This document shows, piece by piece, positions 7,441 through 61,260 of a stretch of 64,000 nucleotides of DNA. The DNA is from Actinomycetota bacterium (GTDB taxonomy: Bacteria > Actinomycetota > Acidimicrobiia > IMCC26256 > PALSA-555). Location of the stretch: the NCBI GenBank assembly GCA_016870355.1, contig VGBR01000003.1:68653-132652 (forward strand), given 5' to 3'. The translations under genes and the position numbers were made by a program. The stretch's first letter is position 1; each line of letters starts with the position of its first letter. The notes under the pieces are model-generated. The model did not search any database. It saw only the letters and a list, made by a program, of their open reading frames with translations, and had not been told where the DNA came from.

Positions 7441-7701
7441 GTGCGATTCGAAGCGCGTGTGGACGTGACGCACTTGCCGGGGATCGCCGATCCACAGGGC
7501 GCGACGGTCGAGCGCGCGCTGCCGGCGCTCGGGTACACGAACGTCTCCGAGGTGCACATCGGCAAGACGATCCGTCTCGTAATCGACGCAGCCGATGAAG
7601 CCGCGGCACGCGCACAGGTCGGTGAGATGTGCGAGCGACTCCTCGCCAACCCGGTCATCGAGGCGTATTCCATCGAGATCACGGAGCTCGCGCCGACATG
7701 A
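7441..7701 (+). CDS. purS: FGAM synthetase subunit PurS
   Basis: 86 residues from GTG 7441 (VRFEARVDVTHLPGIADPQG). Contains the PurS pattern DPQGATVERALPALGY and a C-terminal NPVIEAYSIEI strand. PurS is the small structural subunit that bridges PurL and PurQ in the three-part FGAM synthetase. It begins one base after the purC stop. A copy of a hairpin repeat separates it from purQ. Confidence 0.94.
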   Translation: MRFEARVDVTHLPGIADPQGATVERALPALGYTNVSEVHIGKTIRLVIDAADEAAARAQVGEMCERLLANPVIEAYSIEITELAPT

Positions 7702-7704
7702 GCG

Positions 7705-7763
7705 ACCGGCCGCGCATCGGGTATCCCGATGCGCAGGGAGCGGGGCCCGAGCGGCCCGGCGCG
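7705..7763 (+). repeat. Hairpin repeat, copy 1 (upstream of purQ)
   Basis: The core at 7712-7734 is a perfect 10-bp stem with a 3-nt TAT loop (GCGCATCGGG/CCCGATGCGC). It is followed by GAGCGGGGCCCGAGCGGCCC, a tail identical to one 52 kb away at copy 4. The element fills the purS-purQ gap; just 3' of it the purQ Shine-Dalgarno region (AGGAGCGAGGAAG) begins. Confidence 0.75.
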
Positions 7764-7783
7764 AAGCGCCAGGAGCGAGGAAG

Positions 7784-8467
7784 GTGAGCGCGCGAGTCGC
7801 GATCGTCGTCTTTCCTGGGACGAACTGTGAGCTCGACGTCGCGCACTCGCTCGAACAGCTCGGGGGATCAACGGAGCTTGTGTTCCACACCGCAACGAGC
7901 CTCGGCGGTGCCGACGCGGTAGTCGTCCCTGGCGGCTTTGCGCACGGCGACTACCTGCGCACCGGAGCGTTGGCGCGCTTCTCACCGGTGATGACAGCGG
8001 TCGCTGAGCACGCGGCCGCGGGCGGCCCGGTCGTCGGCATCTGCAATGGCTTCCAGGTGCTCACTGAGGCCGACCTCCTTCCCGGCGCGCTCCAGAAGAA
8101 CGTTGGCTTGAAGTTCCTGTGCAAGACCGTCGAGTGCCGGGTCGAGACGAGCGCGTCGGTCCTCACCTCAGGTGTCGCGCCGGGGACCGTCCTGCGGCTC
8201 CCGATCAACCACTTCGAGGGCAACTACATCTGCGACCAAGTCACGCTCGATCAGCTTCGAGCCGAGGATCGGATCGTGCTGCGCTACGTCGACAACCCGA
8301 ACGGCGCGCTCGATGACATCGCTGGCATCGCCAACGAGCGCGGGAACGTCGTCGGGCTCATGCCGCACCCGGAGCGGGCAAGCGACGCGCTGCTCGGCTC
8401 CTCGGATGGCGTGGTGCTGTTGCAGTCGTTGCTCGACGCGGCGGTCGCCCGCTCCGAAGCCGCCTGA
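7784..8467 (+). CDS. purQ: FGAM synthetase glutamine amidotransferase subunit
   Basis: 227 residues from GTG 7784, preceded by AGGAGCGAGGAAG; the longer ORF runs back through the hairpin repeat and is not real. A class I glutamine amidotransferase: it supplies ammonia to PurL. The nucleophile elbow is VVGICNGFQVL (Cys near residue 87), and MPHPERA supplies the catalytic His/Glu. The N-terminus VAIVVFPGTNCELDVAH is typical of PurQ. Confidence 0.95.
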   Translation: MSARVAIVVFPGTNCELDVAHSLEQLGGSTELVFHTATSLGGADAVVVPGGFAHGDYLRTGALARFSPVMTAVAEHAAAGGPVVGICNGFQVLTEADLLPGALQKNVGLKFLCKTVECRVETSASVLTSGVAPGTVLRLPINHFEGNYICDQVTLDQLRAEDRIVLRYVDNPNGALDDIAGIANERGNVVGLMPHPERASDALLGSSDGVVLLQSLLDAAVARSEAA

Positions 8468-14409: not shown

Positions 14410-14420
14410 GGCGACTGACC

Positions 14421-14443
14421 GCGCCGCACGGATCCTGCGGCGC
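14421..14443 (+). repeat. Hairpin repeat, copy 2 (purM-bldC gap)
   Basis: GCGCCGCA and TGCGGCGC form an 8-bp stem around CGGATCC, whose GGATCC can extend the helix with one bulged C. It is followed by AGGGAGCCGGGCGCGG, resembling the tail of copy 1. A degenerate member of the family. Confidence 0.5.
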
Positions 14444-14512
14444 AGGGAGCCGGGCGCGGCAGCCTGAGCGGAAAGCTGGAACTCGACAGATTGCCCATAG
14501 CGGCAAACTCGG

Positions 14513-15867: not shown

Positions 15868-15940
15868 GGGCCGCTAGCTCAATTGGCAGAGCAACGGGCT
15901 TTTAACCCGGAGGTCGAGGGTTCGATCCCCTCGCGGCCCA
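15868..15940 (+). tRNA. tRNA-Lys (TTT)
   Basis: Acceptor GGGCCGC/GCGGCCC with discriminator A, D-arm GCTCAATTGGCAGAGC, anticodon loop CTTTTAA (anticodon TTT) and T-arm GAGGGTTCGATCCCCTC. CCA is not encoded. Its last 29 nt plus two flanking bases recur 55 bp downstream. Confidence 0.93.
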
Positions 15941-15966
15941 CACGGTTGCGGCTTTTCACTCGTGAC

Positions 15967-15997
15967 GGTCGAGGGTTCGATCCCCTCGCGGCCCACA
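15967..15997 (+). repeat. Duplicated 3' end of tRNA-Lys
   Basis: 31 bases are identical to 15912-15942, covering the variable region, T-arm, acceptor 3' strand and two flanking bases. The 5' part of a tRNA is absent, so this is a remnant and not a gene. Such fragments mark att sites of tRNA-targeting integrases, but no integrase lies nearby and only 24 bp separate the copies. Confidence 0.85.
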
Positions 15998-16012
15998 TCA
16001 TGCGTTCGCTCA

Positions 16013-16083
16013 CCGCGAGGCGGGATACCCGCCTCGCGGGCGTTCGCTCGCTGGCGATCGTCTCCGTTCACTCCGTTCGCTCC
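16013..16083 (-). repeat. Hairpin repeat, copy 3, with tandem GGAGYGAAC 9-mers
   Basis: 16013-16039 is a perfect 12-bp stem with a 3-nt loop (TAT on the minus strand), the same architecture as copy 1 but with different stem bases. On the minus strand three 9-mers lie ahead of it at 16083-16057: GGAGCGAAC, GGAGTGAAC, GGAGACGAT. The same 9-mer array occurs at 27320-27346. Confidence 0.65.
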
Positions 16084-16110
16084 GACGCCGCGGCTTGGTA
16101 GACCTCACTC

Positions 16111-59627: not shown

Positions 59628-60157
59628 CGGACACCGAAGCGAGCGGCCGCGACGCAGGTACCCTGCGGCGCAGCGAGCGGGGCCCGAGCGGCCCGGCCCA
59701 CGGGGCCGAGAGCGGGGAGTTGGACCTCGACGCTCGCGAACGGGCTGCGCACGCGCTGGTCGCCGCGCACCTCGAGGGGCCGGTCGCGGCTCAGCCCTAC
59801 ATCCAGACCGTCGAGTACGACCCGGAGCTTCGCCGCTGGTACGTGCGCTTCGGCTGCGATGGTCGTGACGCCACGACCATCTACTTCGATCTCCACCAGC
59901 GCACGCTGCGCTACGAGGTCTACTTCTTGCCCGATCCACCCTCGAACCACCTCGAGCTCTACCGCTTCCTCCTGCAGCGCAACCATTCGATGTACGGCAC
60001 GCGCTTCTCGATCGGGCCCGACGGCGACCTCTACCTCACGGGTCGCGTGGCCCTCGAGCACCTCACTGAGTACGAGCTCGACCGCATCATCGGGGTGCTC
60101 TACGAGCTGGTCGAGACCTGGTTCCAACCCATCGTTCGTCTCGCCTTCGGTCGATAG
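59624..60157 (+). CDS. YbjN-domain protein
   Basis: Up to 177 residues. TTG 59624 overlaps the mshA stop (TTGA), but its first 32 codons run through hairpin repeat copy 4; an in-frame TTG at 59720 just after the repeat may be the real start. The domain begins ERAAHALVAAHLEGPVAAQP and includes YDPELRRWYVRFGCDGRDAT, PDPPSNHLELYRFLLQRNHS and LTEYELDRIIGVLYELVET, typical of YbjN/type III secretion chaperone-like folds in actinobacteria. Function unknown. Confidence 0.78.
   Translation: MTDTEASGRDAGTLRRSERGPSGPAHGAESGELDLDARERAAHALVAAHLEGPVAAQPYIQTVEYDPELRRWYVRFGCDGRDATTIYFDLHQRTLRYEVYFLPDPPSNHLELYRFLLQRNHSMYGTRFSIGPDGDLYLTGRVALEHLTEYELDRIIGVLYELVETWFQPIVRLAFGR
59641..59696 (+). repeat. Hairpin repeat, copy 4 (mshA-ybjN junction)
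   Basis: GAGCGGCCGCGACGCAGGTA begins the copy; CGCAGG-TAC-CCTGCG (59653-59667) forms a 6-bp stem with a 3-nt loop. The tail GAGCGGGGCCCGAGCGGCCC is identical to copy 1, 52 kb away. The left part is nearly identical to copy 5, 740 bp downstream. Confidence 0.75.
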
Positions 60158-60453
60158 TCCCGCTGCAGTCACCGACGCGGTCTCCGCGTGTCCGGCGGGG
60201 TGCCAGCGCCGACGGGTGCCGGCGCGGAGGCCGCTGCGCCTCCGGCGTCACGGGGCCCGAGGTGCATGACGGTTCGCTTCGTTCGGGGAAGTGCGGAGCT
60301 CTCCCGAAGTTCCTCGGGCTCCTGACACCTACGTAAGCGCGGCACCGCAGCTTCCGGAGGAAGCGGAGGTGCTCGCAGGCGCTGGCGAGCGGCCGCGCCG
60401 CAGGTACCCTGCGGCGCAACGAGCGCGCCCAGGGTGATGGCTACCCTGAACGG
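60158..60453. other. Non-coding gap before proC, GC-rich with small hairpins
   Basis: 296 bp with no convincing ORF in either direction. It holds several short inverted repeats (GACGCGG-TCT-CCGCG near 60175; GGAGCTCTCCCGAAG region; CTTCCGGAGGAAGCGGAGG near 60350) and, at its right end, hairpin repeat copy 5. TACCCT at 60442-60447 is the likely -10 box of proC. Confidence 0.6.
60383..60425 (+). repeat. Hairpin repeat, copy 5 (upstream of proC)
   Basis: GCGCCGCAGG-TAC-CCTGCGGCGC (60395-60417) is a perfect 10-bp stem with a 3-nt loop, preceded by GCGAGCGGCC and followed by GAGCG. The stem bases differ from copy 1 on both arms in a compensating way. Confidence 0.75.
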
Positions 60454-61260
60454 GTGAACCGCGGACTCGCGCTGCTCGGTGGTGGACGCATGGGCGAGGC
60501 GCTCATCGGGGGTCTGCTCGACGCGGGCTACGAAGCCGAGTCCATCGCCGTCGCCGAGGTGGATCCTGACCGCCGGCGGGAACTCGAAGAGCGTTGCAAA
60601 GGCGTGCGGGTGGTGCCGAGCGCGGCGTGGGCCGTCGCCGACACCGAGATCGTGGTCGTCGCAGTCAAGCCGCAAGATGTCGCCGCGGTGCTCGAGCAGG
60701 CCGCAAGCAGCCTCGCCGAGGACGCCCTGGTCATCTCGATCGCCGCCGGCGTGAAGATCGCGGCCATTGAGGCCGCGGTGCCCGGTCGGCCCGTCGTGCG
60801 CGCGATGCCGAACACACCCGCGCTCGTTCGCAAGGCCGCGACGGCGATCGCCGGCGGGAAGCACGCCACCCCAGGCCATCTCGAGACCGCTGAGCGCGTG
60901 CTCGGCGCCGTCGGAGCCGTGGTGCAGGTGCCGGAAGCGCATCTCGACGCCGTCACCGGCTTGTCGGGCTCAGGTCCGGCGTACCTGTTCCTCGTAGCCG
61001 AGTCGCTGATCGAGGCGGGCGTCCTCGCCGGCTTGCCGCGCCAGACCGCGGATGCACTCGTGCGCCAGATGTTGCTCGGTTCCGCGCAGCTCCTCGCGAG
61101 TGGCGACGAGAGTCCCGAGGCGCTGCGCGCCGCAGTCACGTCACCAGGTGGAACCACCGCGGCAGGGCTGCACTCACTCGAGCAGCGCGGCGTGCGCGCG
61201 GCGTTCCTCGACGCCGTGCGCGCGGCCACTGAGCGGTCGCGACAGCTGGGCGACCAATGA
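60454..61260 (+). CDS. proC: Pyrroline-5-carboxylate reductase
   Basis: 268 residues from GTG 60454, with TACCCT exactly 6 nt upstream. Last step of proline synthesis. Rossmann motif LALLGGGRMGEALIGGLL, VRAMPNTPALV and the family signature VTGLSGSGPAYLFLVAESLI, then VTSPGGTTAAGLHSLEQRGV. Overlaps the next gene by four bases. Confidence 0.95.
   Translation: MNRGLALLGGGRMGEALIGGLLDAGYEAESIAVAEVDPDRRRELEERCKGVRVVPSAAWAVADTEIVVVAVKPQDVAAVLEQAASSLAEDALVISIAAGVKIAAIEAAVPGRPVVRAMPNTPALVRKAATAIAGGKHATPGHLETAERVLGAVGAVVQVPEAHLDAVTGLSGSGPAYLFLVAESLIEAGVLAGLPRQTADALVRQMLLGSAQLLASGDESPEALRAAVTSPGGTTAAGLHSLEQRGVRAAFLDAVRAATERSRQLGDQ

Follow-up and report, generated by a model that had tools for sequence, protein, structure and literature searches.

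The window (the whole stretch of DNA analysed, 64,000 nucleotides in length) carries five copies of a covarying hairpin that recurs more than a hundred times in the genome, and these copies probably belong to a non-autonomous mobile repeat family that colonises stop/start junctions. We observed a high copy number, covariation of the stems, empty sites in relatives, a position flush with gene junctions and a sense bias, and the reading as a non-autonomous mobile repeat accounts at once for the copy number, the empty sites, the patchiness and the position.

Copies in the window, the genome and the order

Searched in full and without filters, the window gave exactly five covariance matches, four on the plus and one on the minus strand, with E values from 1e-12 to 3e-15, and these are the copies that the initial annotation had placed at 7705, 14421, 16013, 59641 and 60383; the next-best window match had E=0.011. 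Five of the ten copies from which the search model (R1, 44 positions and 14 pairs) was built came from the window, so that the window matches are circular and the genome-wide result is not. In this genome (G000, 2.82 Mb in 31 contigs) the model found 111 matches at E<1e-3 (128 at E<=1), and in a sister species of the same genus (G001) it found 132 copies. The initial annotation had proposed a dispersed repeat family and had named a scarcity of further copies as the outcome that would speak against it; the genome-wide count bears the proposal out. A strict pattern likewise gave seven genome-wide matches versus none for the reversed control. The features in the window are as follows.

7699..7701, plus strand: TGA, left copy of the duplicated target, which is the purS stop codon within ATGA (a single ATGA in G001, G012, G016 and G020)
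7702..7745, plus strand: core hairpin of copy 1, directly 3' of the purS stop, with a 10-bp stem, a TAT loop and an outer stem with tandem G.A (E=1.2e-14)
7746..7783, plus strand: 3' side hairpin of copy 1 (CGGCGC-GAA-GCGCC) and right end AGGAGCGAGGAAG before the purQ GTG, the module being as in copy 4
7785..7787, plus strand: TGA, right copy of the duplicated target, overlapping the purQ GTG start (GTGA)
14411..14454, plus strand: core of copy 2, with a degenerate loop, 1 nt past the purM stop and 5' of a bldC-like gene (E=1.1e-12)
16004..16047, minus strand: core of copy 3, adjoining tRNA-Lys and a duplicated tRNA 3' end (E=2.6e-13)
16048..16100, minus strand: 5' side module of copy 3, type B (GCGGCG...GATCGCCAGCGA) by comparison with type B copies
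59639..59682, plus strand: core hairpin of copy 4, with a TAC loop, 11 nt past the stop codon of an mshA-like gene (E=2.8e-15)
59683..59719, plus strand: 3' side hairpin and right end of copy 4, directly 5' of a TTG start at 59720
60337..60384, plus strand: 5' side stem module of copy 5, type B (GCGGCACC...GGTGCTCGC), folding z -3.85
60385..60428, plus strand: core hairpin of copy 5, with a TAC loop, upstream of proC (GTG at 60454) and common to G001 (E=8.8e-15)

The window copies thus neighbour purS and purQ, purM and the bldC-like gene, the tRNA-Lys region, the mshA-like gene and an unknown gene, and an unknown gene and proC. The plan with a three-base TAT or TAC loop that had been ascribed to all five holds for four of them (TAT at 7705 and 16013, TAC at 59641 and 60383), the copy at 14421 having a degenerate GAT. 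Copies 1 and 4 do have in common the identical tail of more than 20 bp that had been reported, namely the 23 nt GAGCGGGGCCCGAGCGGCCCGGC; this tail is a second hairpin present in about 30 genome copies. The minus-strand orientation of copy 3 was absent from the initial annotation. Adjoining this copy is a 31-bp perfect direct repeat of the tRNA-Lys 3' end (window 15912-15942 and 15967-15997, 55 bp apart), whose second unit is missing in G001 and which has the appearance of a scar left by a tRNA-targeted integration.

Carriers of the family were found in 14 of the 35 sampled genera of the relatives set, in a patchy distribution confined to one order of Acidimicrobiia; the family was absent from the other orders sampled, and 396 other genomes sampled across the phylum gave no R1 match at 1e-6. 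The carriers that bear names are metagenome assemblies assigned to Acidimicrobiia or Actinomycetota, Baikal-deep-G33 and MGR_bin273 among them; three genomes (G014, G029 and G052) contain head-to-tail duplicates and near-identical copies. Viral contigs searched with two exact patterns yielded no element. As no match to any curated cis-regulatory or small RNA family in Rfam and no paper describing this hairpin repeat were found, the family is apparently undescribed, as had been supposed. A record labelled 'Bifidobacterium breve isolate MaH-09apr19-113' (CAMDCC01 contigs; L195, L196, L201, L205 and L209) matches the Acidimicrobiia genome G002, which is of the same genus as G000, in contig and position and is probably a mislabelled assembly.

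Covariation of the core hairpin

The core spans 44 nt (GCGA-N-C-GNCC-GCGnnGCnGG-TAY-CCnGCnnCGC-A-G-N'-GAGC) and consists of an inner stem of 10 bp followed by an asymmetric internal loop and an outer stem with N-N' and C-G pairs, a tandem G.A/A.G and two G-C/C-G pairs; some copies, a minority (GCTACC...GGTAGC), have T-A and A-T in place of the tandem G.A. Among 96 distinct copies, standard pairs filled 96.3% of the stem cells versus 79.0% after shuffling, 219 cells had changed on both sides versus 65.8, and the covariation score was 0.454 versus 0.151, with none of 500 shuffles reaching the observed values. Double changes occurred in 12 of the 14 pairs, and sliding the partner by 1-3 columns as a control lowered the covariation score to 0.03-0.08. 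The claim that the stems change in a compensatory manner and that pairing is under selection is therefore confirmed in a larger alignment, the very place where a lack of covariation was to count against it.

In the sense-strand stems of two genomes, G.U/U.G outnumbered A.C/C.A by 74:15, an excess that ascertainment partly favours since the search models penalise A.C somewhat more than G.U. Because the two counts should be equal if there were no strand preference, the molecule under selection is probably the single-stranded sense strand. RNA folding energies ranged from z -0.2 to z -3.9 across copies and are uninformative for some of them because of the 80% G+C. A kink-turn, which the tandem G.A had brought to mind, was rejected on the grounds that the bulge is not adjacent to the tandem G.A and that the G.A is replaceable by T-A/A-T; an intrinsic terminator was rejected in view of the lack of a T-run and the position before start codons.

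Exchangeable side modules

The core occurs in three kinds of unit. In type A (about a third of copies, including window copies 1 and 4), it is followed by a 3' hairpin CGGC[C/G]C-GNA-G[G/C]GCC(G) and by the right end GAGCGGGAAG just 5' of the start codon; many of these tail stems were read by eye, the automatic stem finder having mis-parsed many. In type B (another third, including window copy 5 and, by its 5' flank, copy 3), a 5' stem precedes the core, its arms co-vary (GATCCC/GGGATC, GCAACC/GGTTGC, GCGATC/GATCGC and GCACC/GGTGC), and the unit ends in ...GAGCGAGCGAGTAGAG before ATG. The remaining copies (type C) consist of the core alone. Type A units measure about 83-86 nt in all and type B units about 110 nt, and other families of the order have additional side modules as well as units of about 60 nt arranged head to tail. 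At a TGATG junction of G000 (C3:176881-177007, L122), two of the three units of a 31-nt tandem repeat contain a 52-nt core hairpin and the third lacks it, apparently a case of the bare core having been inserted or lost.

Position at gene junctions

The copies had been said to sit in gaps next to start codons, and this is borne out genome-wide, where position was read from the stretches around the matches. The next gene lies downstream in the sense orientation for 84 of the 98 copies with flanks (85 if a copy for which no upstream gene was within reach is included), and in codirectional gaps sense outnumbers antisense by 64:10 (p=9e-11); divergent gaps hold 20 copies and convergent gaps three. 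Gene calls came from a simple codon-usage caller, and single start codons may be wrong. Type A cores mostly begin 0-21 nt past the upstream stop (0-2 nt in 9 of 22), with the start codon mostly 35-43 nt past the core; type B cores mostly lie 51-67 nt past the stop, with the start codon 2-11 nt past the core. NTGA was found at the start in 24 of the 61 cases examined. A continuous reading frame runs through the element in many copies and is lacking in others, frames being open by composition.

Some copies are read through in frame at the N- or C-termini of proteins, for instance in C-terminal tails of G001 such as ASVRGAGTLRRSEPGPERPG-like ones, and core hairpins lie in frame within a nuoL-like gene (a name read from the sequence itself) in G000 (C3:166849, L100) and in G001 (L186:5300-5470) in opposite orientations, apparently as independent insertions into one variable protein region. 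Such copies would be expected of a translated element that spreads as a reading frame harmless or useful inside proteins, like the Rickettsia palindromic elements (RPE). Most copies are intergenic, however, all frames tend to be open at about 80% G+C, and the opposite orientation of the two nuoL-like insertions means that no peptide is conserved, so that we regard this explanation as very improbable.

Empty and filled sites in related genomes

We compared syntenic junctions between G000 and G001 (35 starting from G000 copies and 20 from G001 copies), two species whose proteins are about 80% identical and whose 4-fold sites are 53% identical versus 38% by chance. Roughly a third to a half of the junctions are occupied in both species, and the rest in one species only, in both directions. 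Window copy 5 at proC is present in G001 and missing from G002 and G003. Window copy 1 is absent from all 15 other genomes examined, and we therefore take it to be a gain. At this purS/purQ junction the genes overlap as ATGA, the ancestral arrangement, in G001, G012, G016 and G020, and most other genomes examined have short gaps; here the junction reads ATGA-[GCGACC...GAGGAAG]-GTGAGC, with 86 nt added and TGA on both sides. The TGA duplication is clean at this one locus; other junctions have also lost or gained a few bases, which blurs the exact ends and the duplication at most of them. The empty sites bear out the initial label 'REP/MITE-like', if it is taken broadly to mean a small mobile repeat that is non-autonomous. 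The same junction in G002 (L233) holds a different repeat without the core hairpin, a second G+C-rich type (AGCGAACG...AGTAGCGGAA/GTGGGAGC...) that also occurs at a gene junction at L114 (G000 C4, around 137,700).

At seven shared junctions compared column by column, the core is 64-93% identical between G000 and G001. Six compensatory double changes and five single changes preserve pairing, and a further seven changes leave a pair open in one species. Since core identity exceeds synonymous-site identity, shared copies seem either to have acquired a function after insertion, with selection acting on them in place, or to have been re-homogenised between copies.

Such in-place conservation above the synonymous level, with its compensatory changes, is also what one would expect of a cis-regulatory RNA leader family, that is, a regulon in which a hairpin 5' of more than 80 starts is bound by a protein or ligand to control translation and whose distribution reflects regulation and not insertion. 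The strong covariation, the excess of G.U on the sense strand and the 84 of 98 copies with a sense gene at a tight distance fit this account as well. On the other hand, occupancy is unstable between the sister species in both directions, the targets in the window are unrelated housekeeping genes (purQ, proC and the bldC-like gene), some copies are found within reading frames, in both orientations, or antisense after stop codons, and presence is patchy within one order. A purely regulatory leader is thus less likely than a mobile repeat, and we consider it unlikely. The 'structured RNA leader' of the initial annotation accordingly describes where most copies sit and not how they arrived, and some individual old copies may be functional leaders.

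Search for a mobilising enzyme

The Y1 transposase domain (Y1_Tnp, PF01797) was absent from G000-G003 and from every one of the 19 genomes that carry the element in a set of 61 relatives; within this set it was found only in five genomes, all of which are without the element. The suggested check for a RAYT gene thus came out negative. A REP family moved by a RAYT (Y1 tyrosine transposase) would account for the imperfect hairpin, which is short and has a 3-nt loop, and for the many intergenic copies with their patchy occurrence. Yet beyond the missing enzyme, none of 98 copies shows a GTAG or CGTC tag at the base of its hairpin, where the flanks are GCGA/GAGC, and REPs lie mostly downstream of genes (PMC3733652) whereas the copies here lie upstream of starts; we give this explanation almost no credence.

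Dependence on a reverse transcriptase was rejected, as RVT_1 is missing from G000, G002, G003, G014 and other carriers, and IS110 transposase does not track carriers, with only a partial match in G000. Among the few families compared with element presence (Y1, RVT_1 and IS110), no mobilising enzyme was found. A classical MITE, which would derive from a DDE-type insertion sequence by internal deletion and be moved by the transposase of that sequence, would likewise be small and non-autonomous and might leave a 3-bp duplication such as the TGA at one site. However, inspection of the ends (GCGANCG... and ...GCGGGAAG) revealed no terminal inverted repeats, the palindrome being internal and central, and the side modules are exchangeable, which fixed terminal repeats would not allow. 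We accordingly hold a classical MITE to be improbable.

Comparison with known repeats and a proposed mode of spread

By description, the element behaves like the mycobacterial interspersed repetitive units (MIRUs; PMC12548453, PMC2734929), and we do not claim membership among them. A recent review describes MIRUs as apparently mobile and inserting at start codons, with the reading frame coupled at a spacing of -4 (PMC12548453). Both are actinobacterial, of 40-100 bp at tens of dispersed loci in MIRUs and of about 83-110 nt in 111 copies here; both insert at start codons or stop-start overlaps, and both occur head to tail at some loci. The stop/start overlap is also re-created, the purS/purQ frame opening at ATGA, crossing the element and closing at the TGA in GTGA, with -4 spacing. 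By contrast with MIRUs, the element centres on a hairpin that contains tandem G.A and covaries strongly, its side hairpins are exchangeable, its host belongs to the Acidimicrobiia, and the frame is coupled through it at some sites only. REPs (PMC3733652, PMC2817692) are similar in being short palindromes with small loops in more than 100 patchily distributed copies, and the CGTC families among them likewise lack a dedicated transposase; REPs differ in their GTAG/CGTC tags and RAYT, in a shorter unit and in lying downstream of genes rather than in sense upstream of starts. RPEs (PMC10969869) are palindromic, measure about 100-150 bp and are in part in frame in housekeeping proteins, whereas intragenic copies are a minority here and lie in both orientations without a conserved peptide, in an unrelated host. 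MITEs and ERIC, RUP and Correia/NEMIS elements (PMC2229807) are likewise small, non-autonomous and intergenic and can fold as RNA; the present element is set apart by its modular hairpins, in which compensatory changes abound, and by ends that showed no terminal inverted repeats.

In the mode of spread that we propose for the mobile repeat, a putative mobilising enzyme would recognise the folded sense single strand (RNA or single-stranded DNA). The element inserts at gene junctions, typically where stop and start overlap or abut (ATGA, TGATG). The upstream stop stays at the left end and a start for the next gene lies at the right end, so that both genes remain translatable, and the right end may replace the original initiation region. 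The sense bias might then arise because only the sense orientation keeps the downstream gene expressed, and some old copies, common to more than one species, appear to be retained as leaders. It is possible, and we advance it tentatively, that the family represents a new mobile class in which a folded sense single-strand substrate (RNA or ssDNA) with exchangeable hairpin modules is moved by a putative enzyme and supplies a new initiation region at stop/start junctions, which would make the invasion of essential operons nearly neutral.

The family provides a second, independent actinobacterial case of repeats invading operons at start codons, and its many filled and empty sites make the way in which MIRU-like repeats move testable by comparative genomics. 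The very strong covariation indicates that a folded single strand matters, and with more than 100 gene junctions per genome carrying structure, many in housekeeping operons, the element probably affects translation in its hosts, most of which are uncultured.

A second covarying element near proC

A further element of about 70 nt lies near proC at 60254-60323 on the plus strand of the window (GGGCCCGAGGTGCA...CGTTCGGGGAAGTGCG...GTTCCTCGGGCTC) and recurs in 10 of 12 relatives, which belong to different genera and families. It has an invariant apical loop of 12-16 nt and covarying stems (94.5% paired versus 85.6% after shuffling; covariation 0.339 versus 0.139; reached in none of 500 shuffles). 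A comparison with Rfam gave no convincing match, and the element is possibly an undescribed small structured RNA; in G006 and G008 it points the other way with respect to proC.
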